NCBI GenBank assembly: GCA_944325765.1
Contig: CALVBH010000091.1
Span: forward strand, 1-39,395
Length of the DNA stretch: 39,395 bases
From: an uncultured Bacteroidales bacterium
GTDB taxonomy: Bacteria > Bacteroidota > Bacteroidia > Bacteroidales > UBA932
Direction of reading: 5' to 3'
Shown: positions 11,540 through 23,453 of the stretch, in pieces
How the letters are laid out: every line of letters begins with the position of its first letter
How positions within the stretch are numbered: position 1 is the stretch's first letter
Program-made: the position numbers and the translations under genes
Notes under the pieces: model-generated
The model's input: only the letters and a program-made list of their open reading frames with translations
What the model was told of the DNA's origin: nothing
The model's database searches: none

Positions 11540-11546
11540 CTTGCCC

Positions 11547-12698
11547 ATGGACAGGAAGATGAATATGGTGGACCTGAAAGGCCAGTACGAACGGATAAAG
11601 CCCGAAATCGATGCCGGAATCCAATCGGTAATAGACAGTTCCGCCTTCATAAACGGGAAACCTGTACAGGAATTCCGCAAAAATCTGGGGACATACCTCG
11701 GCGGGACTCATGTCACCGCCTGCGGCAACGGCACCGATGCCCTGCAGATAGCCCTCATGGCACTCGGGCTGAAGCCCGGAGACGAAGTGATAGTTCCTGC
11801 CTTCACATACGTGGCCTCTGCCGAAGTCATCGCCCTTCTCGGGCTGGTTCCGGTAATGGTGGATGTAAATCCGCGCAGTTTCAATGTCGAGGCTGACGAG
11901 ATACTCAATGCCCTGACCCACAAGACCAAAGCCATAATTCCGGTGCATCTTTTCGGGCAGAGCTGCGATATGGAGCCTATCATGGACCTGGCACGCGATC
12001 ACGGGCTGTATGTCATAGAAGACAACGCGCAGTCTCTCGGAGCCGACTGCATTTTCAGGGACGGAAGCAGGAAAAAGGCCGGTACCGTCGGCACCATAGG
12101 CTGCACCTCCTTTTTCCCTTCGAAAAATCTCGGCTGTTACGGTGACGGAGGGGCCATATTCTGCAGCGATGAGGCGCTTTCCGAAAAAATCTCGATGACA
12201 GCCAATCACGGTCAGAAAATAAAGTACCATCACGCCGTCATAGGCTGCAATTCCAGATTGGATACCATCCAGGCTGCCGTACTAAATGTGAAACTGAAAC
12301 ATTTGGACGAATATTCCGGGGCCCGGCGGCGTGCCGCCCGTTATTACACGGAAAAGTTCCTGCAGGCCGATCCTGACGGCAGGTTTTTCGAGACTCCGGC
12401 AGAAATGCCCTTCAGCACGCACGTCTACCACCAGTACACCCTGAAAATCAAGGGAGGACGGCGCGACGGGCTGAAAGACCGGCTCGAAAAGCGTGGAATC
12501 CCGTCCATGATATACTACCCGCTTCCGCTTCAGGCACAGGAAGCGTTCAAGGGCATCGCCCGTGCAGCGGGTCCGCTTGTCTGCGCTCAGGAATGCGCGG
12601 ACTCGGTTTTGTCCCTGCCTATGCATACGGAGCTGACGGCCGACATTCAGGATTATATAATAGGCAATGTCCTGGAATTTTTCGGAATGTCGTCGTAG
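11547..12698 (+). CDS. wbpE: PLP-dependent sugar 3-aminotransferase (DegT/DnrJ/EryC1; WbpE-like)
   Basis: 383 aa. By context it transfers an amino group from glutamate to the 3-keto sugar. Visible motifs: CGNGTDALQIAL, the PLP-pocket region FTYVASAEVIALLG, VIEDNAQSLGA, and the Schiff-base lysine in SFFPSKNLGCYGDGGA. The end of the fold (YHQYTLKI, YYPLPLQAQEAF) is intact. Several in-frame starts exist (TTG 11541, ATG 11547, ATG 11559); family proteins start near MNMVDLKGQY, so ATG 11559 is also possible. It starts within about 10 bp of the wbpB stop. Confidence 0.9.
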   Translation: MDRKMNMVDLKGQYERIKPEIDAGIQSVIDSSAFINGKPVQEFRKNLGTYLGGTHVTACGNGTDALQIALMALGLKPGDEVIVPAFTYVASAEVIALLGLVPVMVDVNPRSFNVEADEILNALTHKTKAIIPVHLFGQSCDMEPIMDLARDHGLYVIEDNAQSLGADCIFRDGSRKKAGTVGTIGCTSFFPSKNLGCYGDGGAIFCSDEALSEKISMTANHGQKIKYHHAVIGCNSRLDTIQAAVLNVKLKHLDEYSGARRRAARYYTEKFLQADPDGRFFETPAEMPFSTHVYHQYTLKIKGGRRDGLKDRLEKRGIPSMIYYPLPLQAQEAFKGIARAAGPLVCAQECADSVLSLPMHTELTADIQDYIIGNVLEFFGMSS

Positions 12699-12708
12699 GA
12701 TGATACAT

Positions 12709-12777
12709 AGAGGCGGCGCGGCTCGCACAGACTACAACCCTCTCCGAGGGTCAACAGTGCTCGCCGTCACCGCCTCT
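12709..12777 (+). repeat. Structured repeat family 1, copy 1
   Basis: Outer stem AGAGGCGG (12709-12716)/CCGCCTCT (12770-12777), continued by GCGGC/GCCGT. Then conserved box TCGCACAGACTACAA, inner stem ACCCTC/GAGGGT (737-742 / 746-751 of the 12 kb block), and conserved box CAACAGTGCTCGC. GCAC and GTGC inside the boxes can also pair. It lies in the intergenic gap between wbpE and wbpD. See copies at 17205 and 21490. Confidence 0.8.
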
Positions 12778-12791
12778 GTGCATCGCCCTGC

Positions 12792-12821
12792 ATGTCATCC
12801 CAAGTGTAGTCGAGGGATCTG
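12792..12821 (+). repeat. Structured repeat family 3, copy 1
   Basis: ATGTCATCCC...GTCGAGGGATCTG, a short imperfect palindrome of the type scattered through intergenic DNA in many gut genomes. A second copy is at 21431-21475 (minus). In both places it follows a family-1 repeat at about 14 bp in the same orientation, so the two may form one composite unit. Confidence 0.55.
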
Positions 12822-12838
12822 TAGAATAGAAAAATATT

Positions 12839-13405
12839 ATGGAAGAAAGGAAATATTTCATACACGAATCCAGTTATGTGGATGAGGGGGCTGAAATCGG
12901 TGAGGGAACCAAAATCTGGCATTTCTGCCACGTACAGGGACATTCTGTTATCGGGAAGAATTGCTCGCTCGGACAGAACGTGAATATCGGCTGCAATGTC
13001 CGTATCGGCGACGGAGTCCGGATTCAGAACAACGTCTCGGTCTACGACGGGGTGGAACTTGAAGACAACGTATTCTGCGGCCCGTCCTGCGTCTTCACCA
13101 ACGTCCTGACACCGCGCGCCCATTTCCCCGTTCACGGACAGTATGTCAGGACACTGGTCAGGGAAGGAGCCTCCCTGGGAGCGAACTGCACGGTAGTCTG
13201 CGGCCATACCATAGGCAAAAGCGCCATGGTGGCGGCCGGAGCGGTAGTGGCTTCGGATGTGAAGGACTTTGCCCTGGTCGCCGGAGTGCCTGCCCGGCAG
13301 ATAGGCTGGGTGTGCGAATGCGGGAAGCGGCTCGATGCCGGACTTGAATGCAGCTGCGGAAGAAAGTACGCCCTCATCGACGGCTGCCTGACACGGAAAT
13401 TTTAA
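12839..13405 (+). CDS. wbpD: UDP-3-amino-sugar N-acetyltransferase, left-handed beta-helix (WbpD-like)
   Basis: 188 aa. By context it acetylates the 3-amino group to give UDP-GlcNAc(3NAc)A. Hexapeptide repeats run through residues about 15-145 (VDEGAEIGEGTKIWHFCHV, SLGQNVNIGCNVRIGDGVRIQ, SLGANCTVVCGHTIGKSAMV) with the family loop LTPRAHFPVHGQY. The C-terminus carries two CxCG knuckles (CECGKRL, CSCGRKY), probably a small zinc ribbon. Separated from wbpE by about 140 bp holding repeat families 1 and 3; nevertheless the gene order A-B-E-D is intact. Confidence 0.9.
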   Translation: MEERKYFIHESSYVDEGAEIGEGTKIWHFCHVQGHSVIGKNCSLGQNVNIGCNVRIGDGVRIQNNVSVYDGVELEDNVFCGPSCVFTNVLTPRAHFPVHGQYVRTLVREGASLGANCTVVCGHTIGKSAMVAAGAVVASDVKDFALVAGVPARQIGWVCECGKRLDAGLECSCGRKYALIDGCLTRKF

Positions 13406-13430
13406 CAGGGACGCCTCACAAATGTAATTG

Positions 13431-13500
13431 GATTCAGGAGGAATCCGAAGATTCATCGGAATCCGCAGTGACGACGGCATAAATTCATAGAGCAACGTTA
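13431..13500. repeat. Palindromic spacer between wbpD and dut
   Basis: GGATTC-AGGAG-GAATCC forms a hairpin, and GATTCATCGGAATCC repeats parts of it. The end, GTGACGACGG, resembles one side of family-3-like intergenic palindromes. No terminator T-run follows, so read-through into dut is likely. Confidence 0.35.
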
Positions 13501-13506
13501 TACGAC

Positions 13507-13941
13507 ATGAAAATACAGATACTGAACAAATCCCGTTATCCCTCGCCGGCATACGCCACCGAAATGTCTGCCGGAATGGACCTGAAAGCCGACATCAGCG
13601 AACCGGTAGTTCTCGCACCTCTCTGCAGGGCAATGATTCCCACCGGACTTTCGATAGCCCTGCCGAAAGGCACCGAAGCCCAGATAAGGCCGAGGAGCGG
13701 ACTGGCGGCAAAGCACGGAATCACTGTCCTGAATACTCCCGGGACCATCGATGCCGACTACCGTGGTGAAATAAAGGTGATTCTGGTCAATCTCTCGGAT
13801 ACCGCTTTCACAGTCAACCCGGGCGAAAGGATAGCCCAGATGGTCGTGGCCAGATATGAACACGTGGAATGGGAGGAAACGGAAAGTTTGGACGAGACGG
13901 AGCGCGGCGCAGGGGGATTCGGCAGCACCGGAGTAAAATGA
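13507..13941 (+). CDS. dut: dUTP diphosphatase (dUTPase)
   Basis: 144 aa. Hydrolyses dUTP to dUMP and PPi, keeping uracil out of DNA and feeding dTMP synthesis. All five family motifs are present: [33 protein letters not shown] with the catalytic Asp, ERIAQMVVA, and the C-terminal [11 protein letters not shown] that closes over the substrate. Normal length for the homotrimeric enzyme. It lies 10 bp ahead of murF, so the two are probably translated from one mRNA. Confidence 0.97.
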
Positions 13942-13951
13942 CATCGATATT

Positions 13952-15358
13952 ATGAACATACAGGAACTTTACAAGATTTTCAAAAGCTGCAGCGGCGTCG
14001 CCACCGACAGCAGAAAGATAAGCGGAGGAGAACTATTCTTCGCCCTCAAAGGGGAAAATTTCGACGGCAACGCCTACGCCGCGGCAGCCATCGAATCAGG
14101 TGCGGCATACGCAGTCATTGACAGCAAATCGGAAGCCGCGGCAGCCCTGCCGGCGATGGACAGAGACAAAGCGTCCCGGTTCATTCCCGTAGAGGATACC
14201 CTCCGGACCCTCCAGGAACTTGCCAGATGGCACCGCTCCACCACATTCGTGAACGGCAAACCGCTGACTGTCATAGGGCTGACCGGGACCAACGGGAAGA
14301 CCACGACCAAGGAACTGATAAAGGCAGTCCTCTCCGTACGCTATCGTGTGACAGCGACCGAGGGGAATCTGAACAACAGCATCGGAGTGCCGCTTTCCCT
14401 CCTGAAAATAGACGGAAATACCGAAATGGCCGTCATAGAAATGGGAGCAAGCCACCCGGGGGACATCAAGGAACTGGTTTCAGTCTGTCTTCCGAATTTC
14501 GGGCTCATAACCAACGTCGGGAAAGGGCATCTTCTCGGCTTCGGCAGTTTCGAAGGAGTAAAGAAAGCCAAGGGAGAACTTTACGACTATATCCAGAGAA
14601 CGGCTGACAAGGTCTTTCTGAATGCGGACGACCCGGTACTCCGCGAAATGGCGTCGGAACGTCCGGACCTGCAGACCATCCCGTACGGGCTGCACCATCA
14701 GGGAGCAGAAATACTGACCGCAGACCCTGCCCATCCTTACCTGCGCATTCTGCTGAAAGACGAGAACCTCGAAATAGACACCCGCCTCATAGGAAGCTAT
14801 AACGCCGCCAATGTCATGGCGGCAATGGCCGTAGGACAATATTTCGGGATTCCGCACACCGATGCGGCAAAAGCCATAGAAGCCTATACTCCCGTCAACA
14901 ACCGCTCTCAGTTAGTGCATACGGGCAGGAATACCCTCATCATCGACGCCTACAATGCGAATCCCACGAGTATGGCCGCCGCCCTCGAGAATTTTGCCTC
15001 GACCTCGGCAGAGCACAAGACGGTCATGCTCGGCGATATGCTCGAACTTGGCACCGAATCCATAGCGGAGCACGAGAAAGTCCTGGAACTGCTTCATCGG
15101 ATGGAGGTAGAGCATGCATATCTTGTAGGAGACGAATTCCGAAAGGCTGCGGAAAAACTCGGACTGATATCCGGAGAAGACGTGAAGCGTGACGGCAGCC
15201 GGTCCGGGACAAAAAGCGCCTCTGACGGCTGCATCATACTGTTCCCGACCTCACAGGCTCTTGCGGACTACCTTTCGGAGCATCCGCTTTCCGGCAGTAC
15301 CGTGCTCATCAAGGGGTCGAGAGGGATAAGGATGGAGAATGTAACAGTGGTTTTGTAG
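13952..15358 (+). CDS. murF: UDP-N-acetylmuramoyl-tripeptide--D-alanyl-D-alanine ligase
   Basis: 468 aa. Adds D-Ala-D-Ala to the UDP-MurNAc-tripeptide in the cytosol, the last cytoplasmic step of peptidoglycan precursor synthesis. N-terminal substrate-binding domain (VATDSRKISGGELFFALKGENFDGN); ATP-binding P-loop GLTGTNGKTTTKEL near residue 109; EMGASHPGDI and YNANPTSM are MurF family motifs; C-terminal domain LGDMLELG...GSRGIRMENV is complete. Last gene of the obg-murF operon, which converges on the NAGPA gene with 15 bp between stop codons and no clear terminator. Confidence 0.96.
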   Translation: MNIQELYKIFKSCSGVATDSRKISGGELFFALKGENFDGNAYAAAAIESGAAYAVIDSKSEAAAALPAMDRDKASRFIPVEDTLRTLQELARWHRSTTFVNGKPLTVIGLTGTNGKTTTKELIKAVLSVRYRVTATEGNLNNSIGVPLSLLKIDGNTEMAVIEMGASHPGDIKELVSVCLPNFGLITNVGKGHLLGFGSFEGVKKAKGELYDYIQRTADKVFLNADDPVLREMASERPDLQTIPYGLHHQGAEILTADPAHPYLRILLKDENLEIDTRLIGSYNAANVMAAMAVGQYFGIPHTDAAKAIEAYTPVNNRSQLVHTGRNTLIIDAYNANPTSMAAALENFASTSAEHKTVMLGDMLELGTESIAEHEKVLELLHRMEVEHAYLVGDEFRKAAEKLGLISGEDVKRDGSRSGTKSASDGCIILFPTSQALADYLSEHPLSGSTVLIKGSRGIRMENVTVVL

Positions 15359-15373
15359 CGAATCCCTCTACTG

Positions 15374-17185
15374 TCACTTGGCGACGAGAGCGACGAAGGA
15401 GAGAACCCTGCGCTCCGAGCCGTCGGACGGAGAATTCACTAAGACAGCATCGTCAGTCACGCAAAGGGCGGTGGAACCGCCTCCGTCGAGATTCAGGGCT
15501 TCTGTGCAGCCTACGCCTTTCATCAGCCGGGCCAGTTCGTCCAGTGTCACGCCCTGGCTGCCGCCCGCTCCCCTGCCGTCCACTGTCATGATGATGATTT
15601 CACCGTTGGCAGTGCGGCCTATAGCTGTGCGCGGAGGACGGACTGAAGGGCCGAAAATGTCGCTCTGAAGCAGTTCGTAATTCGACTTGTAATACCCTGA
15701 CGGCGTAGTCAGATAGTCGAAACAGAGTTTTCCGTCATACAGGATGACAGGCGCCCCGCCTATGGCCGACCAGACATCCCAGTCCTCCCTCGCGGAAGGG
15801 AAATCCTCCGTCGGGGTCAGGCGCGGGCCTCCGTCATATATCGGCAGAGGAGACGTATAGGCCATATTCTTCGTCGAATAAAGCCATCTGACAGACGCAG
15901 TCCCGTCTTCGGTCACGCCGAATGCCCCGCGGGTCACTGCATAGCTCTTGGTCCGGGTGAGAGAGGAAATCTGCGCGGCCTTCTGCACTCCCCTGTCGAG
16001 AACATAGCTGTAAGACTGGGTGCCGCCGAAATAGCCCCCGTTCACTATCGCATAGACTTCCGTATCGAAAAATCCGCTTTTCACCAGATCGTAAGGTGTG
16101 GTCAGGGCATCGGCCTTGACAGTCCGCAGTTCGATGTTGCCGGCAGAAAGGTCGGCCTTGAGATACCAGGCATTCACGTTGCGTCCGGTCACGGAGGTCG
16201 TGGTCCGGTAAAACTCTATGTTCTCCGGAAATTCAGGATAATCCACCCTGCTCCACTGCGGGGTGAACGGCCCCGGTTCCGCATCCATTCTGCCGCTTAC
16301 GGCATCGGAATATACTATGCCGGATTCGTTGCGGGCCCAGGCACGCAGAAAGTATGTCTTTCCCTGCGAAAGGCCGACGGCATTGCCGAAGGAGGCGGAG
16401 CCGGATGAGAGGGGCTCGGGATAAGTGTATACATAGTCATCGACGGTCGGATCGGAGGTTTCGGACCAGCAGATTCCGGCCTCGCATTCACGCCCGCCGT
16501 CCTCAGTCACCGTAAACGGCAGGGAAAGCATGTACCAGGATGTCTGCAGGGTCCCGGCAGTCACTTCCGGAGCGGAAAACGCCTCATAACTGCAGGTCGC
16601 GGCCTCGGAACGCTCCGTACCGCTGTAAGCCATCACGCGGTAGCCGTAGGTGCCGGTAGTTACCGTCCCGTCGGTGACCTGCTCCGTGTCCGCATCCAAG
16701 TATTTCCAGGTCTCAAAGTCACCGTCGCGGTATTTTCTCTCGACGATGTAGCCCTCCTCTCCCACACAGCAGTCGGTCCAGCTTATCAGGAGGCCGTCGG
16801 AAGTCATCCCGCAGGTGCAGTCCGCCGGTGCGGGAAGCTTTTCGAAATAGTATGAAGCCTCGGCAAACTCTCCGGGCACTCCCCCGCTGACGGTATAGAC
16901 CCTGTAGGAATAGTTCCCGTCCTCAGTCACGGTCCTGTCCTGATATACGCATACGCCTGTCGGCAATTCGGTCAGAAGCTCGTATCCGCCGCCTTCGAAG
17001 GAGCGCTCCACCGCAGTAACGTCATAACTTTCGCCCTCCGCTGTCCAAAGCAGTCTCAGAATATTCAAACCGGTGCGTTCTATCGTAAGGTCCGAAGGTA
17101 TGACAGGTTCTGTTTTCTCCTGCTTCTGCGAGCAGGCGCAGGACAATACGGCTGTCGCCGACAATATCAGGATTATTCTTTTCAT
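15374..17185 (-). CDS. Phosphodiester glycosidase (NAGPA-type) lipoprotein
   Basis: 603 aa. Lipobox VLSC puts the lipidated Cys at residue 16 (Cys18 is also possible), so it is membrane-anchored, likely outer membrane. Residues about 30-130 and 125-215 look like two fibronectin-III-like modules, with another Ig-like stretch to about 310. The C-terminal domain (about 340-603) matches the NAGPA family, named for the enzyme that removes GlcNAc from GlcNAc-1-phospho-6-mannose: NGGYFGG (about 381), RPPRTAIGRTANGEIIIMTVDGRG, and NLDGGGSTAL (about 563-572). Last gene of the glycan locus. It is separated from the gene before it by a 300-bp spacer full of structured repeats, which may lower its expression. 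Confidence 0.85.
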   Translation of the reverse strand: MKRIILILSATAVLSCACSQKQEKTEPVIPSDLTIERTGLNILRLLWTAEGESYDVTAVERSFEGGGYELLTELPTGVCVYQDRTVTEDGNYSYRVYTVSGGVPGEFAEASYYFEKLPAPADCTCGMTSDGLLISWTDCCVGEEGYIVERKYRDGDFETWKYLDADTEQVTDGTVTTGTYGYRVMAYSGTERSEAATCSYEAFSAPEVTAGTLQTSWYMLSLPFTVTEDGGRECEAGICWSETSDPTVDDYVYTYPEPLSSGSASFGNAVGLSQGKTYFLRAWARNESGIVYSDAVSGRMDAEPGPFTPQWSRVDYPEFPENIEFYRTTTSVTGRNVNAWYLKADLSAGNIELRTVKADALTTPYDLVKSGFFDTEVYAIVNGGYFGGTQSYSYVLDRGVQKAAQISSLTRTKSYAVTRGAFGVTEDGTASVRWLYSTKNMAYTSPLPIYDGGPRLTPTEDFPSAREDWDVWSAIGGAPVILYDGKLCFDYLTTPSGYYKSNYELLQSDIFGPSVRPPRTAIGRTANGEIIIMTVDGRGAGGSQGVTLDELARLMKGVGCTEALNLDGGGSTALCVTDDAVLVNSPSDGSERRVLSFVALVAK

Positions 17186-17204
17186 GTTTCAGACTTCTTT
17201 ATTT

Positions 17205-17276
17205 GAAGAATGGCAGAGTTCGCACAGATTACAATTTCCTTACGGAAATCAACAGTGCTCACCTCTGCCATTCTTC
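17205..17276 (+). repeat. Structured repeat family 1, copy 2
   Basis: Outer stem GAAGAATGGCAGAG (17205-17218)/CTCTGCCATTCTTC (17263-17276), 14 perfect pairs. Conserved boxes TTCGCACAGATTACAA and CAACAGTGCTCAC flank inner stem ATTTCC/GGAAAT. Stem sequences share nothing with copy 1 but remain complementary. It lies 20 bp upstream of the NAGPA start codon, on the strand opposite to that gene. Confidence 0.85.
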
Positions 17277-17362
17277 CAATTTACTTCACAGAAGACATCA
17301 GAGATCAACAAAGTGTTGCGAACTCCTGTTTTACATCGGCAAATCGCCGTATTGCAACTATT

Positions 17363-17486
17363 AGAGGGGGACTCAAAAGGAGGAATTTCAAGGCTTGCGA
17401 AGACGAGAAAACCGGAGTTTACTTGCCGTAAATGAGGATTTTCGAATCAAGCGTAACGAAGAAAGTGCCCTTTTGAGTTCCCCTCT
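17363..17486 (+). repeat. Structured repeat family 2, copy A
   Basis: An 18-bp outer stem (17363-17380 / 17469-17486, one G-T pair) encloses 88 nt. Inside, AAAA-CC (17408-17413) pairs with GG-A-TTTT (17436-17442), and TTTAC (17418-17422) pairs with GTAAA (17428-17432). Conserved with copy B: AAGGC, GAAG..GAG, GGAGTTTAC, CGTAAATGA, CGAATC, AAGC.AACG. The right arm touches the last base of the GHL10 stop codon. The remaining spacer 17277-17362 shows no gene. Confidence 0.8.
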
Positions 17487-19213
17487 TAAAGCCAGTCGGG
17501 AAATTTGGCGGGGGCGGCGTAGAATTTCCGGAAGACTTCCTGAACGTAATCTGTCTTCAGGCCGTCGAACCAGAACTGGGACTCGCCGCAGGTTCCGACG
17601 GAACGGTTGAACCTGAGCTGAGCCTCCAGGACATCGCGGTCCATGATTTTTCCGCCGTTGTTCAGAATCATGGCAGGATTCAGAAGATTCCTGCCGGTAT
17701 TGGCACTGACATATCCCAACGCATTGCGAATGTCGGTGTGATATGAATTCAATACATAGAACTGCACTGTAAGCAAATCCACAGCGCCGTCAGCTATCCA
17801 CTGAGGCCAGTCCTGCATCAGATTCGTCTCGCACCATGGATATTTGTTCGGAGCGGAGCAGACTATCAGGTCTGATTTCAGAGCCTTCATCTCGTCATAC
17901 ATTCTGACTGCGAAGGAATTCAATTTGCCAAGACGCCATTTTACCCAAGACGGATTATTATAGTCTGACGGTGGCGTGCCTCCGGTTTCAGAGAGGTACA
18001 TCGCCTTGGTCACATCGTCATATCCGGAATTCCGGGGCATGGCAGGGAGCCTGTCATCGCCCTGCACACCGTCCACATCAGGATATTTCGCGACTGCCTC
18101 CTTCATCAGAGACAGGATGAAGTTCTGGACGTCAGGATTGTAGGCGTTCAGATAATAGTCGGAGCCGTTATAGTTCGAATATCCGCCATCGTTTCCGATA
18201 CCTATCCAGTCGGGATGTTCGGACAATATCGGATCAGACAGGTTCACGCCTCCGATTCCGTGCATGAAACCGTACTCGAACCACAGGATAACCTTGATGC
18301 CGTGCTGATGCGCAGTCTCGATGATGTCCTTCAGGGCATCCCCGGAACCTCCCGTATACCTCGCGTACATATTCGCACTGTCATAGTCCGTGTAGGAGGA
18401 ATTCTGCAGCAGGACATCACTGTCCCAGGCGACCTTGGAATTCGCCCACGCACAGACAAACAGGCAGTTGAAATTCAGATCCGCCATCAGTTCTATGGAA
18501 CTCTGCACGTTCTCCCGCGTTATGAAAGACGTGGTGTGTGACGGAGACGGAAGATATATGCCCCGCACTGCCGTTTCCTGTTCCGAGACGGTAGCAGTCA
18601 GGGTAAAGGTCTTTTGAGTGACGCCGTCCGGAGCCGTGACCGTTAGAGTCTTCGGTGACGTCAGATCGAACGGCTCCGAAAGCGCCGGCTCAAAGGCAGT
18701 GCCGTCGTAAGTATCTACAGTAAAGGTCAATGCAGTAATATCCGCACCGTAAGGGAATTCGAAAAGGATATCCCCGCCTGAAATTTTGCCCTCCACTGCA
18801 TACTCGCTGTTGATAAAGTCATTCAAGACAATATCCGAGGACGGCAATACCGACACATTCAATGTGTATTTCCTCGCGTGGCCTTCGGCGTCCGAGAGGT
18901 AAATACCGATATTTTCTTTGGTAAGGTCTATGGAACTCCCGCTCTCCGGGCTGCCCGTGATACCTTCCGCCACCGTGTACTCTATGTGGGCGTTCCCGAG
19001 GATGGCTCCGTACGGAAAACTTATGTCCACGGTATAATCGGTGTGGTCGATACGGATGTCGAGTCCCGGATATTCGCGCAGAGAAAGGCTCTTGAGTTCC
19101 AGATCGGAGGTCACAGGAGGCTCCGGCTCCGGCGTTTCCGGGGTATCCGCTCCGCAGGCATTGAATACAAGCAGCGCGGCAGCTAAAAAAGCGGTGAGTT
19201 CCATCAGTTTCAT
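17486..19213 (-). CDS. Glycosyl-hydrolase-like GHL10 family lipoprotein
   Basis: 575 aa. Lipobox FNAC gives lipidated Cys20; CGADTPETPEPEPP follows as a flexible acidic linker. Residues about 35-215 are two DUF5018-like/Ig-like repeats (LKSLSLREYPGLDIRID, TLNVSVLPSSDI). Residues about 215-575 resemble the GHL10 (DUF187) TIM barrel: VRGIYLPSPSH, NFNCLFVCAWANSKVAW, HGIKVILWFEYG, HPDWIGIG, VDGVQGDDRLP near 378-388, WVKWRLGKLNSFAVRMYDEMK. The DD pair would be the candidate catalytic acids. Substrate unknown. It starts 11 bp after the DUF5018-like gene, so co-transcribed. Confidence 0.85.
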   Translation of the reverse strand: MKLMELTAFLAAALLVFNACGADTPETPEPEPPVTSDLELKSLSLREYPGLDIRIDHTDYTVDISFPYGAILGNAHIEYTVAEGITGSPESGSSIDLTKENIGIYLSDAEGHARKYTLNVSVLPSSDIVLNDFINSEYAVEGKISGGDILFEFPYGADITALTFTVDTYDGTAFEPALSEPFDLTSPKTLTVTAPDGVTQKTFTLTATVSEQETAVRGIYLPSPSHTTSFITRENVQSSIELMADLNFNCLFVCAWANSKVAWDSDVLLQNSSYTDYDSANMYARYTGGSGDALKDIIETAHQHGIKVILWFEYGFMHGIGGVNLSDPILSEHPDWIGIGNDGGYSNYNGSDYYLNAYNPDVQNFILSLMKEAVAKYPDVDGVQGDDRLPAMPRNSGYDDVTKAMYLSETGGTPPSDYNNPSWVKWRLGKLNSFAVRMYDEMKALKSDLIVCSAPNKYPWCETNLMQDWPQWIADGAVDLLTVQFYVLNSYHTDIRNALGYVSANTGRNLLNPAMILNNGGKIMDRDVLEAQLRFNRSVGTCGESQFWFDGLKTDYVQEVFRKFYAAPAKFPDWL

Positions 19214-19224
19214 CTTAAATCAAA

Positions 19225-20871
19225 TTATTCGAGTTCGAAGAGTGAGATACCGGTCTGAGGGACTGATACAACAATATATGTTTTCCCGTCTATTACTCTC
19301 AAATCAGAACCTCCAAGATTGTTTCCGTTTTTCATTCCTGTAATTCCTATTTCATTTGGATCTCCTATTCCTAATTTCTTGAATGTCATAGGATCCGCAC
19401 TCTCCATTGACTCTTTAAGAGTTGCATAATTCAATTCTTGTATTACCAGCGCAGCATCTTGAGCAATGTTTTCCAATTTAACGTATGAAATATATTCTTG
19501 TTCGTTGAAAGTAAAGAATTGAGGATCCAACATAGGATTGGAATATACACCACTCGTCGACAGTTCAAAAGTTGTTGTCAAAGTATTCCCGCTGGCACTC
19601 ATAATCAGATTCGGACCACCTGTTCCTGCGTACATATATTCTGTATCGCTGTATTTATAAAGACCTGCGAATGAATTTGCAGTCGGTAAAACTGGTCCCA
19701 AGTTCAATACCTCTGGAGTAGAATTTATAACACCATTAGTAATATCAAACGTATAAGCAACTCTGTTAGTGGTATTTGGCGTATAATCAACAAAGACCAA
19801 ACGGCCATCCTGCCAATTACCTTCTGCGACAAATTTATCACCGAAACGATGCGCTTCAGTCAAAACATAATCTAATACGACTGTCGGTTCAGAATTAATA
19901 TCGTGGAATGCATATACTTTCAAATGCGAATCCTTTGCATTGACAAGGTTGCAAACAAGAAGTACAGATGAACCGTTATTATCCAAAACTTCTGCATCTT
20001 CAGCTAAATGCACACCACCAGATATTACAGTGGAAGAAATCGTTTTAACAAGATTTCCATTCTGTCTATCGATGACCAGAATATTACCGTTGATATCTGT
20101 TCCGTCTGTAACTGGAATGTAAATATTATTATCATCCATTGCTACATTTCTCTGCCATCCACCTGCAGCAGGGACGCCATTACTACCATACCACCCATCA
20201 GACTCTATCGTAGATGGCTTGGCATAATGCCCCCAGACCCTCTTGACTGAGGAGATGCCGGTAGTGGTGACCTTGATGGTTTCTTCCTTGGTCACTTCGC
20301 CGCATTTCAGGGTGAAGGTAACGCCGTTCACCTTGTCGGAGAAATCCACCTCGGAGCCGGAAGCCACTTCGTCATCACCGATATAGACCTTCGTATCCTC
20401 AGGAGCTACGGTATAAACGAACTCTACTTTGGTCAGGTCTGCAGAGCCGCTGAGTTTCACTGTTCCGCCTGAAACTTCCACCTCATTCAGCGTAGCAGAT
20501 ACGAAATGAGGATTTGCTTCAGCAGTGGTGGCCGAAACGGTGTATGTCACATCCACGCCGTCCTTGGTGAATACGGCCTGAGCAGTGGCTCCGTTCGAGA
20601 AATTATGGGTCAGGGACTCGGCAGTCACGCCGGAAGGCAGGTTCACGAAATTCACTGTCAGAGCCTGAAGCTCCGCAGCATCTTCGTAAGCCAGCTCGAT
20701 GGCGATAGTTTTGGCAGCCGGGTCGACGACTACAAGATACTCACCTGACACACCGGCCACTTCCACCATGTCCTGGGTAATGGCGATGTTTACGTCAGGC
20801 TTGCTGTCATCGTTGTTACAAGCGGTGAACAGAGCGGTCACCGCGAGTAATGAAAATAAAACTTTTTTCAT
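19225..20871 (-). CDS. DUF5018-like surface lipoprotein (mosaic gene)
   Basis: 548 aa. Lipobox LFTAC gives Cys18, followed by acidic NNDDSKPD, a possible surface-export signal of Bacteroidota lipoproteins. Residues about 25-210 are two Ig-like DUF5018-type repeats. Residues about 215-548 form a beta-propeller-like domain that I tentatively relate to DUF4623 (VKRVWGHYAKP, NGNILVIDRQNGNLVKTI). In such loci these proteins usually act as glycan-binding SGBPs; that is inference. Base composition changes sharply at about 20220: the N-terminal part is GC-rich like its neighbours, the C-terminal part AT-rich. This suggests domain replacement by recombination. Confidence 0.75.
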   Translation of the reverse strand: MKKVLFSLLAVTALFTACNNDDSKPDVNIAITQDMVEVAGVSGEYLVVVDPAAKTIAIELAYEDAAELQALTVNFVNLPSGVTAESLTHNFSNGATAQAVFTKDGVDVTYTVSATTAEANPHFVSATLNEVEVSGGTVKLSGSADLTKVEFVYTVAPEDTKVYIGDDEVASGSEVDFSDKVNGVTFTLKCGEVTKEETIKVTTTGISSVKRVWGHYAKPSTIESDGWYGSNGVPAAGGWQRNVAMDDNNIYIPVTDGTDINGNILVIDRQNGNLVKTISSTVISGGVHLAEDAEVLDNNGSSVLLVCNLVNAKDSHLKVYAFHDINSEPTVVLDYVLTEAHRFGDKFVAEGNWQDGRLVFVDYTPNTTNRVAYTFDITNGVINSTPEVLNLGPVLPTANSFAGLYKYSDTEYMYAGTGGPNLIMSASGNTLTTTFELSTSGVYSNPMLDPQFFTFNEQEYISYVKLENIAQDAALVIQELNYATLKESMESADPMTFKKLGIGDPNEIGITGMKNGNNLGGSDLRVIDGKTYIVVSVPQTGISLFELE

Positions 20872-20960
20872 AGCAAAAAAATTTAAAATGGTTGTTATTG
20901 TGCTTGTATTCTACTATTATATCAGTCCGGAAGATTCAAGCCTCCGCCGGCAATGGCGCT

Positions 20961-21404
20961 TCATCGGGCATTATAGCTGAAGGTAGCCTGGTAGCGTTTT
21001 TCAGTACCGTCTGCAGCCACGACCTTGAAATAGACCGTAGCCGAGCGCAGGTCACGGATACCCGAGATGCCTTTCCCGAGATCCTTCCCGAAAGCGTCGG
21101 TCTCCACCACGGTAGCGGTAGAAGGTACGGAGAGTTCGAGACGGCAGCGCTGAAGGGATTCGTCGTTGTAGCGCTCCGGATCATCCGGGAATGTATAGCG
21201 GATAGCTCCCATAGCCTCGTTGAAAGTTCCACTCAGCACATCCACCTCAGAATACGCTGAGTAGTTTTCGGCATCGTAGTAGACGAAACATTTGAAGGAG
21301 TTTATTCCCGTCTCGTCGTCTTTCTCCGGGTAGTCGAGCTTCTGGCAGGAGACAAAGGCCGCCGCCAGCGCGACGAAGGAGAGTGTTATTTGTTTTATAT
21401 TCAT
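20961..21404 (-). CDS. Small lipoprotein, probable SGBP-type
   Basis: 147 aa. Lipobox FVSC gives Cys20, followed by QKLDYPEKDDETG, whose K-D-D part resembles a surface-export signal. The rest is one beta-rich, Ig-like domain similar in style to the DUF5018 repeats of the next gene (RCRLELSVPSTATVVETD, ATVYFKVVAADGTEKRYQATFSYNA). No enzyme motif. It lies between SusD, after a 369-bp repeat-filled gap, and the DUF5018-like gene 89 bp further on. Probably a surface glycan-binding accessory. Confidence 0.7.
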   Translation of the reverse strand: MNIKQITLSFVALAAAFVSCQKLDYPEKDDETGINSFKCFVYYDAENYSAYSEVDVLSGTFNEAMGAIRYTFPDDPERYNDESLQRCRLELSVPSTATVVETDAFGKDLGKGISGIRDLRSATVYFKVVAADGTEKRYQATFSYNAR

Positions 21405-21430
21405 AGTTTTATAATATTTTGTTCTATCAG

Positions 21431-21475
21431 CAGATCCCTCGACTTCGGGCTTTGCCTTCCGCCCGGGATGACATC
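21431..21475 (-). repeat. Structured repeat family 3, copy 2
   Basis: Read on the minus strand: GATGTCATCCCGGGC ... GTCGAGGGATCTG, the same ends as 12792-12821, with a GC-rich insert forming its own hairpin (GGGC...GCCC). A partial third copy (GATGTCATCCCGAGC) runs down from about 21575. All are in the SusD-lipoprotein gap. Confidence 0.55.
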
Positions 21476-21603
21476 AAGGGCTCTGTGGAGAGCCGATGAC
21501 AGCGAGCACTGTTGACCCCGGCAGGGGTTGTAGTCTGTGCGAGCGGCATCGGCTCGGAGCAGCTCGGGATGACATCAAGGGCTCTGTGGAGAGCCGATGA
21601 CAG
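21464..21603 (+). repeat. 39-bp perfect direct repeat in the SusD downstream gap
   Basis: The 39 bases at 21464-21502 recur exactly at 21565-21603, 101 bp later. The unit starts CGGGATGACATC and ends AGCCGATGACAG. The interval holds family-1 copy 3. A duplication by slippage or recombination between repeats explains it. Next to it, GCACTGAT-C-ATCAGTGC (21609-21625) is a perfect palindrome. Confidence 0.9.
21490..21555 (-). repeat. Structured repeat family 1, copy 3
   Basis: On the minus strand: outer stem GAGCCGATG/CATCGGCTC (21555-21547 / 21498-21490), box GCTCGCACAGACTACAA, inner stem ACCCC-TGCC-GGGGT, box CAACAGTGCTCGC. Box sequences match copies 1 and 2; both stems differ but stay paired. 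It is oriented with the operon here, whereas copy 2 is opposite to it. Confidence 0.85.
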
Positions 21604-21773: not shown

Positions 21774-23453
21774 CTACCAGTCGATATTCTGGCGTGCCAG
21801 AGAATTATTGCTAATCTCCGACTGCGGAATCGGAAACCTGTCGAAACGCTCGGGATACTTTCTCGCACCCATCTCGCAGGAAATCAGTTCAGGAGTGAAG
21901 GTCTCATCCCCTGTCTTCGTCCACAGCACGCCATGGTAGATTTTGCCGTCGAGCACCTCGGCGGCCCTGCCGGTACGCCTCAAATCCCAGAACCTGTGTC
22001 CTTCGAAACACAGTTCTATGCACCTTTCCTTAAGGATTACATCCAATGCCGATTCCATATCGGTAATGGGAGCCGTGTAAACGTCATCCCTGCCGAAGCG
22101 TTTCCGGCGAAGTTCCGAAACCACGTCAAAAGCATCGGAGAAGCGGTTTTCATGCGCCAGACACTCCGCATAAATCAGCATCATCTCGGCATATCTGAAT
22201 TCTATCCACGGCTGGTAAGAACCGTTCACCCAGAAATCCAGGTTCGTCTCGTCGAGAAGCTTGCGCATATAGTAGCCTGTCACGGAATTGCCGGGATTGT
22301 TCGTCACGCCGTACGGCATGTACTTCTGGTCCACTCCGCCCTCGTAGCATTCGAGAGGACGGCCTTTCCACAAAGCCCTGTTCCAGAGGACGGAAGCAGC
22401 CAGACGCGGGTCACGCTCCGATGCATTCGCATTTGTGATGAAACGGTTTTCCTCATCGCTGATATCGAACGGCTGTCCGTCGGCATAGTCGTACATATCC
22501 ACGAATTCCTGGGTAGGTCCTCCGTAGCCGGAACCGTAACCGCTGTTCGTGCAGATGTCCCCGGCCTGGGAATATCTCTGGTCGTATGTATGGGTCAGTT
22601 CTCCGGAAACATAGCCGAAGCCCCATATCACTTCCCTGTTGTCCAATGTCTTGAAGATGTCGGCATAGCTGTCGATGTAGCCGTACAGGTCATCTCTTTT
22701 CATAATCTCTTCCACGGCAGCCTTGGCCAGATCATAGCGCTCCGCATAGAGCATCGACCGGGCCATCAGCGCGTATGCCACATAGCAGTTCAGCCTGCCG
22801 GCTGCAGCGGACGGCTGAGGCAGATGTTTCGCAGCATAGTCCACGTCTTCCCAGACCCTGTCCCAGGACTGGGACACCGTAGCGCGAGCACGCGTCTTCT
22901 TCTCCGCTGTCATCTCGTCTATATCGGTGTAGAGGATGGCGCCGTAGTCATCCTTTACGGAAGCATGCGAACGCATTATCAGGAAATATGCGTATGCCCG
23001 GAAGAAAAGCGCTTCGGCCCGGAATTCCTCCACCTGAGACGCAGAGAAATTGGAGGCGTGCTCGTCGAGACCGTCCAGGAACTCGTTTATCCTGCGTATC
23101 CAGCCGTAGCAGGTGGTCCAGGCATCGAAATAGTTGTTATTCACGCTCTGCTGCCCGTCCACGGTCATTATCAGATTGCAGTCGCCGGCTCCGGCGACCA
23201 TTGCTCCGTACTTGAAGACTTCGGTCAGACCGTCCGACATACTCGAATTGCTCCCGCCGAGGGCATTGCTTCCGAACTGGCCGAAATCGGCTATCATAGG
23301 GTAGAACGAATTCAGGTAGAGTTCGGTATTGGCCTGGTTCCGGAAGCCGTAGCCGACATCGTATTTGTCGTTAGGGTCGAGATTCACGACAGAGCAGGCC
23401 GAAAGCAGTGTTATGACCGGTAAAAGTATGGCTTTGTTTCTTATCTGTTTCAT
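21774..23453 (-). CDS. SusD/RagB family glycan-binding lipoprotein
   Basis: 559 aa. Surface lipoprotein that caps the SusC channel and captures oligosaccharides. Lipobox LLSAC gives Cys20. The N-terminal SusD-like region contains the TPR-type helices (ASQVEEFRAEALFFRAYAYFLIMR is the hallmark RAEA(L)FLRA(Y)Y motif region), and the C-terminal RagB/SusD domain shows FRYAEMMLIYAECLAHENR and the ILKERCIELCFEGHRFWDLRRTG motif. Complete, normal length. It starts 13 bp after the SusC stop, the usual tight SusC-SusD pair. A large structured repeat follows its stop. Confidence 0.95.
   Translation of the reverse strand: MKQIRNKAILLPVITLLSACSVVNLDPNDKYDVGYGFRNQANTELYLNSFYPMIADFGQFGSNALGGSNSSMSDGLTEVFKYGAMVAGAGDCNLIMTVDGQQSVNNNYFDAWTTCYGWIRRINEFLDGLDEHASNFSASQVEEFRAEALFFRAYAYFLIMRSHASVKDDYGAILYTDIDEMTAEKKTRARATVSQSWDRVWEDVDYAAKHLPQPSAAAGRLNCYVAYALMARSMLYAERYDLAKAAVEEIMKRDDLYGYIDSYADIFKTLDNREVIWGFGYVSGELTHTYDQRYSQAGDICTNSGYGSGYGGPTQEFVDMYDYADGQPFDISDEENRFITNANASERDPRLAASVLWNRALWKGRPLECYEGGVDQKYMPYGVTNNPGNSVTGYYMRKLLDETNLDFWVNGSYQPWIEFRYAEMMLIYAECLAHENRFSDAFDVVSELRRKRFGRDDVYTAPITDMESALDVILKERCIELCFEGHRFWDLRRTGRAAEVLDGKIYHGVLWTKTGDETFTPELISCEMGARKYPERFDRFPIPQSEISNNSLARQNIDW

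Follow-up and report, generated by a model that had tools for sequence, protein, structure and literature searches.

A dispersed palindromic repeat with a conserved apex and locus-specific stems in Cryptobacteroides

Contig CALVBH010000091.1 of an uncultured Bacteroidales bacterium (assembly GCA_944325765.1; 39,395 nt, the whole of which is here called the window) carries three intergenic copies of a small element, in which short conserved boxes are enclosed by stems whose sequence varies from copy to copy. The question raised by this locus is whether paired stems that vary in this way reveal selection on a structure, or may be a product of DNA copying. A previous interpretation of the window, made from its letters only (the sequence-only reading), had taken the compensatory stems to mean selection on a structure, and had considered a mobile or protein-bound element more likely than a cis leader. 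We judge the second of these views to be right; the first was not borne out, since at two loci the 3' arm of the stem is an inverted stretch of host coding sequence. The explanation we favor, to which we give about even weight, is that the element is a non-autonomous DNA repeat, similar to the repetitive extragenic palindromes (REPs), which belongs to one Cryptobacteroides sub-clade and owes the making and the repair of its stems to template switching.

Conservation centers on an apex of some 44 nt, GC-TC-GCAC-WGRNNTACAA-(inner hairpin)-TCAACA-GTGC-TC-GC. It was characterized in 52 copies, corresponding to those of the fetched loci and representing a minimum, as further core-like BLAST matches in the carrier genomes and in genome G373 were not counted. 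These copies were retained from 62 matches, after removal of six reverse-strand matches, three partial cores of locus L130 and the degenerate match L014:2013-2087, whose core was not recognizable. The 5' arms were grouped greedily into 19 families; with one copy taken per family, information content approached 2 bits at GCAC, TCAAC and GTGC, was 1.0-1.7 bits at the TCGC located 3' of GTGC, and was about 1.2 and 0.7 bits at the GC and TC, respectively, that precede GCAC. Outside the apex, in the arms, it was mostly below 0.6 bit, with a maximum of 0.81. The first five positions of the inner stem formed 254 Watson-Crick pairs and one G-U pair (51 copies), closing short loops of the type UNNC or UNC. 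The outer stem had a median aligned length of 17 (range 6-26), its cells comprising 787 Watson-Crick, 12 G-U, 24 A-C and 31 other combinations. A copy's own arms paired at a score of at least 10 in 83% of copies, compared with 8% when arms were swapped, and the own 3' arm was strictly the best partner of the 5' arm in 25 of the 52 copies.

The statistical significance of the covariation was assessed on the eight copies with exact boxes, in which the named structure paired 95.8% of 168 cells, versus 36-52% in slid-partner controls. Both sides had changed in 13 of the 21 pairs, a value reached by 0 of 500 shuffles (which ignore relatedness), although the number of further pair types was not raised (16 observed versus a shuffled mean of 18.5). 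The stem and internal-loop fold that had been proposed, including the GCAC/GTGC pairing, was reproduced by RNA folding, which yielded an outer stem, a TC/TC loop, a GCAC/GTGC stem, an asymmetric loop and an inner stem. The TC/TC loop appeared in the folding as described, but in some copies it is paired throughout, either via its left side (GAGCAC/GTGCTC, GGGCAC/GTGCCC) or, in L130, via its right side (TTCGCAC/GTGCGAA). In L046:2151, GCAC/GTGC has changed in concert to GAAC/GTTC. Near-perfect long palindromes were observed around the apex in L024 and L046:2151-2225.

To document the presence or absence of the element at orthologous sites, we searched for same-strand core-like sequence within 400 nt, with up to 4 substitutions. 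At ilvC, which is filled in G430, no such sequence was detected in any of 16 relatives; one of them, G150, has a weak opposite-strand match with 4 substitutions. In 14 relatives the next-gene landmark could be located, at 11-94 nt from the anchor; in G430 the distance was 193 nt. A symporter locus, again filled in G430, lacked same-strand core-like sequence in 15 of 15 others; its stop codon abuts the next ATG in G000, and other repeats are present in G225 and G150, that of G150 being possibly a deletion remnant. At a gltD-like gene (named, like prfA, from our reading of Pfam domains), G150 is filled and none of the 13 other loci had a same-strand core-like sequence. The prfA locus showed full, decayed and absent states: complete copies in G397.C41 and G397.C23 (two contigs of one draft, one of them possibly misbinned), both arms kept and the core gone in G283, partial copies in G373, G396 and G228, and absence from ten others, while the sequence in G277 was read as a remnant of the element. 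Finally, the spacer between cysS and xthA (genes identified by Pfam, the latter being a likely member of its family) contains a copy in G277 and G397 and none in G029. Because the core occurs at unrelated loci and is absent from orthologous sites, it appears to have dispersed.

The origin of the arms is indicated by two of these loci. At prfA, the 5' arm, GCAGAATAGCGC, opens with the last codons of the gene. The prfA sequence GCAGAATA is present in the element-free genomes G430, G150 and G394, and is therefore older than the element. The 3' arm reads GCGCTATTCTGC, and the inverted host copy, CTATTCTGC, extends over 9 nt (G397.C41 and G283). In G150, the arm at the gltD-like gene, GGAATTTATGATGGTACAGCGG, includes the last 11 nt of the gene; the sequence TTATGATGG is also found in the element-free orthologue of G228, but not in that of G000, and the inverted host copy, TCATAAATTCC, is 11 nt long. 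When the 150 nt that follow each gene were searched for an inverted copy of its end, the top score was 9 at the filled prfA site and 11 at the filled gltD-like site, versus maxima of 7 and 8, respectively, in element-free relatives. At both genes, the 5' arm thus coincides with the end of the host gene itself, of which the 3' arm is an inverted copy; such an origin of the 3' arm from pre-existing 5' sequence was found at two of the three loci tested. The third, ilvC, was rejected as a further case: its inverted copy is 5 nt only, within the range of 4-7 measured in 14 element-free relatives. Moreover, L058 contains two copies, 489 bp apart, that have the apex and GCAG/CTGC in common; beyond these, the arms of the two copies differ, each being complementary to its own partner. 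Since the 3' arms at prfA and the gltD-like gene are inverted copies of host gene ends, covariation here need not mean selection on RNA. Template-switch copying of DNA fits better than selection on an RNA helix, because of the host-derived arms, the loop bases that are paired from either side and the decay of copies.

Perfect arms unrelated between loci, together with a position behind genes, would also be accounted for if the core inserted into pre-existing palindromes such as terminator hairpins, the outer stems then being targets and not products. We disfavor this scenario and regard it as very improbable: the inverted gene-end copy scored at most 8 in the element-free orthologues of prfA, the gltD-like gene and ilvC, and no copy of the element is located at any of nine terminator-like sites found in the window between 12400 and 21800. 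In addition, 0 of the 52 copies has at least 6 T in the 9 nt following the outer stem, and the possibility that the element is itself an intrinsic terminator was rejected on the same count.

The position of the copies relative to open reading frames (ORFs) of at least 150 codons was strongly asymmetric. Twenty-nine of the 52 copies were found in sense orientation no more than 60 nt 3' of a stop codon, whereas the mirror arrangement was seen in 4 of the 52, with discordant cases numbering 26 to 1 (sign test, p = 4e-7). The first copy of the window is among the four mirror cases, and the frame concerned looks spurious. The mixed orientation that had been noted for the three window copies does not, therefore, extend to the family as a whole, although the second copy is indeed antisense to both its neighbors. 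The 20 upstream genes scanned were functionally unrelated, and included those for rho, DPP IV, phosphomannose isomerase, an Mrp-like protein, a ROK protein, glycerate kinase, phoH, ilvC, a gltD-like protein, RF-1, ppk, asd and SusD; the idea of a regulon was rejected for this reason. A second repeat, described below, accompanies many copies: 22 of the 52 have a GTCATYYCGAG motif (one mismatch allowed) on the 3' side of the core, at a distance of up to 130 nt.

Sense orientation after stop codons is what would be expected of a structured RNA in 3' untranslated regions, acting as a stabilizer, a protein-binding site or a processing site, with the copies forming a post-transcriptional regulon. 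The strong covariation, the short inner loops, and a core that is invariant in copy pairs while nearby coding DNA differs would all agree with such an RNA. We nevertheless consider it unlikely as a general account; some copies may have a role as RNA. The upstream genes have no common theme, copies lie antisense and in frame within truB, and the element is lost or decayed at the same locus in related species. Furthermore, G-U pairs are not in excess over A-C (12 versus 24), which is a weak test, and no Rfam family matched. At the gathering score, a search of the window and ten loci returned tRNAs and a tmRNA only, and at E ≤ 5 the sole match was MIR3627, at 14.1 bits compared with a cut-off of 64. 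The earlier statement that the boxes belong to no named family was in this respect upheld, and neither box 13-mer occurred in the literature searched.

Within truB, the element of G000 and G430 is antisense and in frame, with the ORF open through it (TruB domains identified by Pfam). The truB frame of G225 contains four head-to-tail cores, also in frame (L130, 1323-1577), that of G150 a half-deleted copy whose remnant includes the right arm, and that of G397 a diverged copy. The site is a linker; in the 27 loci (of 30) that were readable, it varied in both length and sequence, and an attempt to define insertion boundaries there was abandoned because of this variability.

Short-term change was compared in five pairs of copies, three of them at one locus type each (cysS, prfA and susD) and two in tandem. 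The core showed 0 differences in 183 positions, versus 18 in 220 for the 22-nt arms, and in the cysS pair two arm changes were uncompensated. At single loci, then, the arms are only loosely conserved, and the core is either maintained or homogenized. Arms that change around a constant core, in the cysS pair without compensation, and the decay of several copies, further weaken the claim of selection on the stems. Nearby coding DNA differed at 14-15 positions per 100 in two of the three same-locus pairs. As separate observations, G277 and G397 differ at 4 of 98 positions in the 3' flank of the cysS-xthA spacer copy and at 15 of 100 in the upstream coding sequence (L035, L051). Downstream of the prfA element (query 1160-1901), the sequences of G373/G396 and that of G397.C23 are 97-99% identical, compared with 83% for upstream prfA (L257, L259, L260), which places an exchange boundary at or near this element.

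We then considered how far the family extends. The exact boxes occurred 8 times in the genome of the window, versus 0 for a reversed-pattern control, and a covariance model identified at least 17 strong copies (E value of 6.8e-9 or better) in this 2.27-Mb draft, which is 88% complete; further carriers were found in the genus, making the family larger than had been described. Of 276 first-look candidates, 150 were scored; the model search listed 20 matches at E ≤ 1, and the three that were not strong corresponded to a degenerate copy (E = 0.003), the reverse strand of a true copy and an apparent chance match. Applied with strict filters to 120 relatives, including the genome itself, the model was positive in one other genome (G068, one copy). 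A looser exact pattern matched 13 of 400 Cryptobacteroides genomes, its reversed control giving 0 in all of them. One match, from horse feces (G226, L052), had no inner stem and was dropped as a chance match, which left 12 carriers including the genome of the window. When about 85,000 species were scanned with the exact pattern, 29 stretches were obtained, all from Bacteroidales or Candidatus Cryptobacteroides; 28 of them fell in the same 11 other carriers and the 29th was the L052 chance match. The exact pattern misses diverged copies, such as the core-like BLAST matches of G373. It had no match in viral contigs, and a blastn search of plasmids with the first window copy returned none. With the TruB of carrier G430 as query, 11 of the 12 carriers, including the genome of the window, were within the 16 best matches among 369 genomes, G068 being the only carrier outside them; the element is therefore clade-limited and patchy.

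Its REP-like size and position and its bulged hairpin suggest comparison with REP/REPIN-type elements mobilized by a REP-associated tyrosine transposase (RAYT; Y1, HUH) of the host clade. RAYT-like Y1 genes were indeed detected in 5 of the 12 carriers, and a divergent copy (L169:2030-2105) adjoins the RAYT-like gene of G277. Mobilization by such an enzyme seems quite unlikely, however, as no Y1 gene was found in 7 of the 12 draft carriers (83-94% complete), including G430 with its 12 pattern matches, while 11 of 20 genomes that lack a pattern match have one. Four of the five Y1 genes inspected (G277, G228, G396 and G373) are flanked by other hairpin arrays, and that of the window's own genome lies at the edge of its contig, the 450 nt on its downstream side containing neither an array nor a copy. 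Conservation, moreover, resides at the apex, and a GTAG tag is not enriched at the foot of the stem. The linked transposase that had been suggested thus did not stand out as a partner, PF01797 being the only transposase family searched for, and a RAYT/Y1 partner was not supported. In L169, L170, L172 and L173, Y1 genes (281-307 aa) were observed beside long tandem hairpin arrays, whose hairpin sequence differs in each genome.

The three copies of the window were recovered with the positions and boxes that had been described for them. Their features, and a separate repeat beside the first copy, are the following.

12707..12780, + strand: copy 1, whole match to the covariance model
12709..12722, + strand: copy 1, 5' outer arm, AGAGGCGGCGCGGC
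12723..12737, + strand: copy 1, box 1, TCGCACAGACTACAA
12738..12750, + strand: copy 1, inner hairpin, CCCTC-TCC-GAGGG
12752..12764, + strand: copy 1, box 2, CAACAGTGCTCGC
12765..12778, + strand: copy 1, 3' outer arm
12794..12821, + strand: second, separate repeat 3' of copy 1, GTCATCCCRAGNGNAGTCGAGGGATCTG
17204..17278, + strand: copy 2, whole match to the covariance model
17205-17218 with 17263-17276, + strand: copy 2, outer stem of 14 bp
17220..17262, + strand: copy 2, box 1, inner hairpin ATTTCC/GGAAAT and box 2
21486..21558, - strand: copy 3, whole match to the covariance model
21502..21542, - strand: copy 3, box 1, inner hairpin ACCCC/GGGGT and box 2

The stop codon of a DegT aminotransferase ORF (11541-12698, Pfam) ends 26 nt ahead of the GCAC core of copy 1, and the element is absent from a paralogue of this operon in the same genome. 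Copy 2 is flanked by two minus-strand genes, lying between the start of one with a NAGPA domain (15374-17185) and the stop of one with a GHL10 domain (17486-19213), and is an exception to the trend toward sense orientation after a stop. The core of copy 3 starts 233 nt past the stop of a SusD gene (21774-23453, minus strand), and its right flank is partly repeated on the left side. Compared with shuffled sequences, RNA folding gave z values of -5.8, -6.8 and -1.6 for copies 1, 2 and 3, respectively; for copy 3 with its flanks, the energy alone is unremarkable. The stems had been described as unrelated in the three copies, yet always paired. The pairing was verified, but copies 1 and 3 look like members of one sub-family, sharing GAGGCGG / GAGCCGATG arms and a similar right flank, and the copies of this GAGGCGG sub-family have clearly spread together with their arms and flanks. 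The second repeat, (T)GTCATCCCGAGCGNAGTCGAGGGATCTG, which is that of window positions 12794-12821, occurs in the right flank of many copies; the stretch matches 8 places in G095, a genome from another family of the order, and resembles REPs tagged with CGTC/TGTC.

In the explanation that we favor, template switching around a dispersed core, the apex would fold as a single strand into a bulged hairpin, which a trans-acting protein would recognize in this form. Copies would land mainly just behind stop codons, with their 5' side toward the gene end. During DNA synthesis, the apex hairpin would fold back, so that the 5' flank (which is the host gene's end at some loci) would be copied as the 3' arm, and later template switches would return mismatched arms to perfect complements. 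The outer stem would then not, or not only, be selected as RNA. The family itself, its exact-pattern distribution, its orientation bias, the copies inside genes, the orthologous sites in different states and the inverted host sequence at two loci are direct observations; we infer recognition of the single strand, the sequence of steps at insertion, the causal part of template switching and enzyme-driven mobility. A more specific version is that the core lands behind stops and, on arrival, acts as its own primer for fold-back synthesis along the host strand. Every new copy would then come with the end of its host gene repeated in inverted form, different at each locus, which amounts to an inverted, and not a direct, target duplication; this we put forward tentatively, as more doubtful than probable.

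Several observations weigh against this explanation. We know of no gene that mobilizes the element and saw no case of transposition between strains. The evidence for inverted host copying comes from two loci; at one of them, prfA, the full copy of G397.C23 scores 6, its 3' arm having diverged, and the partial copy of G228 scores 9 via an imperfect 15-mer of the self-complementary gene end. The ilvC result described above also counts against it. Related copies enter the orientation count individually, which makes its p value optimistic, and 2 of the 29 sense genes (L019 and L046:4612) face a rival long frame on the opposite strand. The invariance of the core in the five pairs could reflect function or homogenization. 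Many arms are alike, with a G-rich 5' arm, so that ordinary descent accompanied by paired changes accounts for some of the differences between stems. Wobble counts discriminate poorly, as shown by 39 terminator-like hairpins used as a control (369 Watson-Crick, 17 G-U, 13 A-C and 14 other), and the wobble test was consequently discarded as proof against an RNA. Lastly, T-A pairs are not in excess over A-T in the outer stems (108 versus 159), contrary to the asymmetry given in PMC8794818.

The element is a naturally occurring family that comprises dozens of copies, along with sites lacking it, and in which covariation is at least partly of DNA-copying origin. It makes this alternative to RNA covariation directly testable and calls for caution in comparative searches for RNAs. 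If the host-copied arms do arise at insertion, this would be a distinct mode of insertion, and we know of no described element with an insertion mode that makes inverted host-copied arms.

Among known systems, the palindromic elements of Rickettsia insert in frame into protein-coding genes, as the present element does in truB; unlike them, it is mostly intergenic and confined to one genus, and the likeness noted here is one of habit. The repetitive hairpin-forming elements of sponge mitochondria (PMC2800124) are likewise small, dispersed, intergenic hairpins, but these are organellar, and the likeness is drawn from their description. According to PMC3733652, the REP super-families GTAG and CGTC have stems of 5-13 bp and 8-9 bp, respectively, with a tag at one end, and CGTC-type REPs seemingly have no dedicated transposase. 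The features that source gives for REPs are shared by the element: small palindromes, many of them 3' of genes and some intragenic, that occur as dimers or clusters and are uneven among species. It differs from them in conserving an apex with an asymmetric loop, while the stems vary by locus. At the foot of the outer stem, on either strand of the 52 copies, GTAG was counted once, CGTC five times, TGTC three times and CCTC never, with about 2.4 expected for each; CGTC was slightly above expectation and foot tags overall were not enriched. Being a small, multi-copy and mostly extragenic palindrome, the element is REP-like, and lies outside the GTAG and CGTC families. As in the REP hairpins recognized by TnpA-REP/RAYT (PMC8266576), its bulged imperfect palindrome is a plausible object for single-stranded recognition, but it has no GTAG motif and 7 of its 12 carriers had no Y1 gene. 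Finally, PMC8794818 describes template switching as a process that makes and corrects perfect hairpins, the 5' base being the template in the intrastrand case. G-C pairs should then outnumber C-G, and T-A pairs outnumber A-T; in our outer stems, the first asymmetry was present (G-C 366, C-G 154) and the second absent. The element resembles those hairpins in having perfect stems that would be made and repaired through reverse-complement copying of the opposite arm with the loop kept, and at prfA and the gltD-like gene the 5' side serves as template, as in that intrastrand case. Unlike those hairpins, which belong to RNA genes, it recurs at many loci around one dispersed core.

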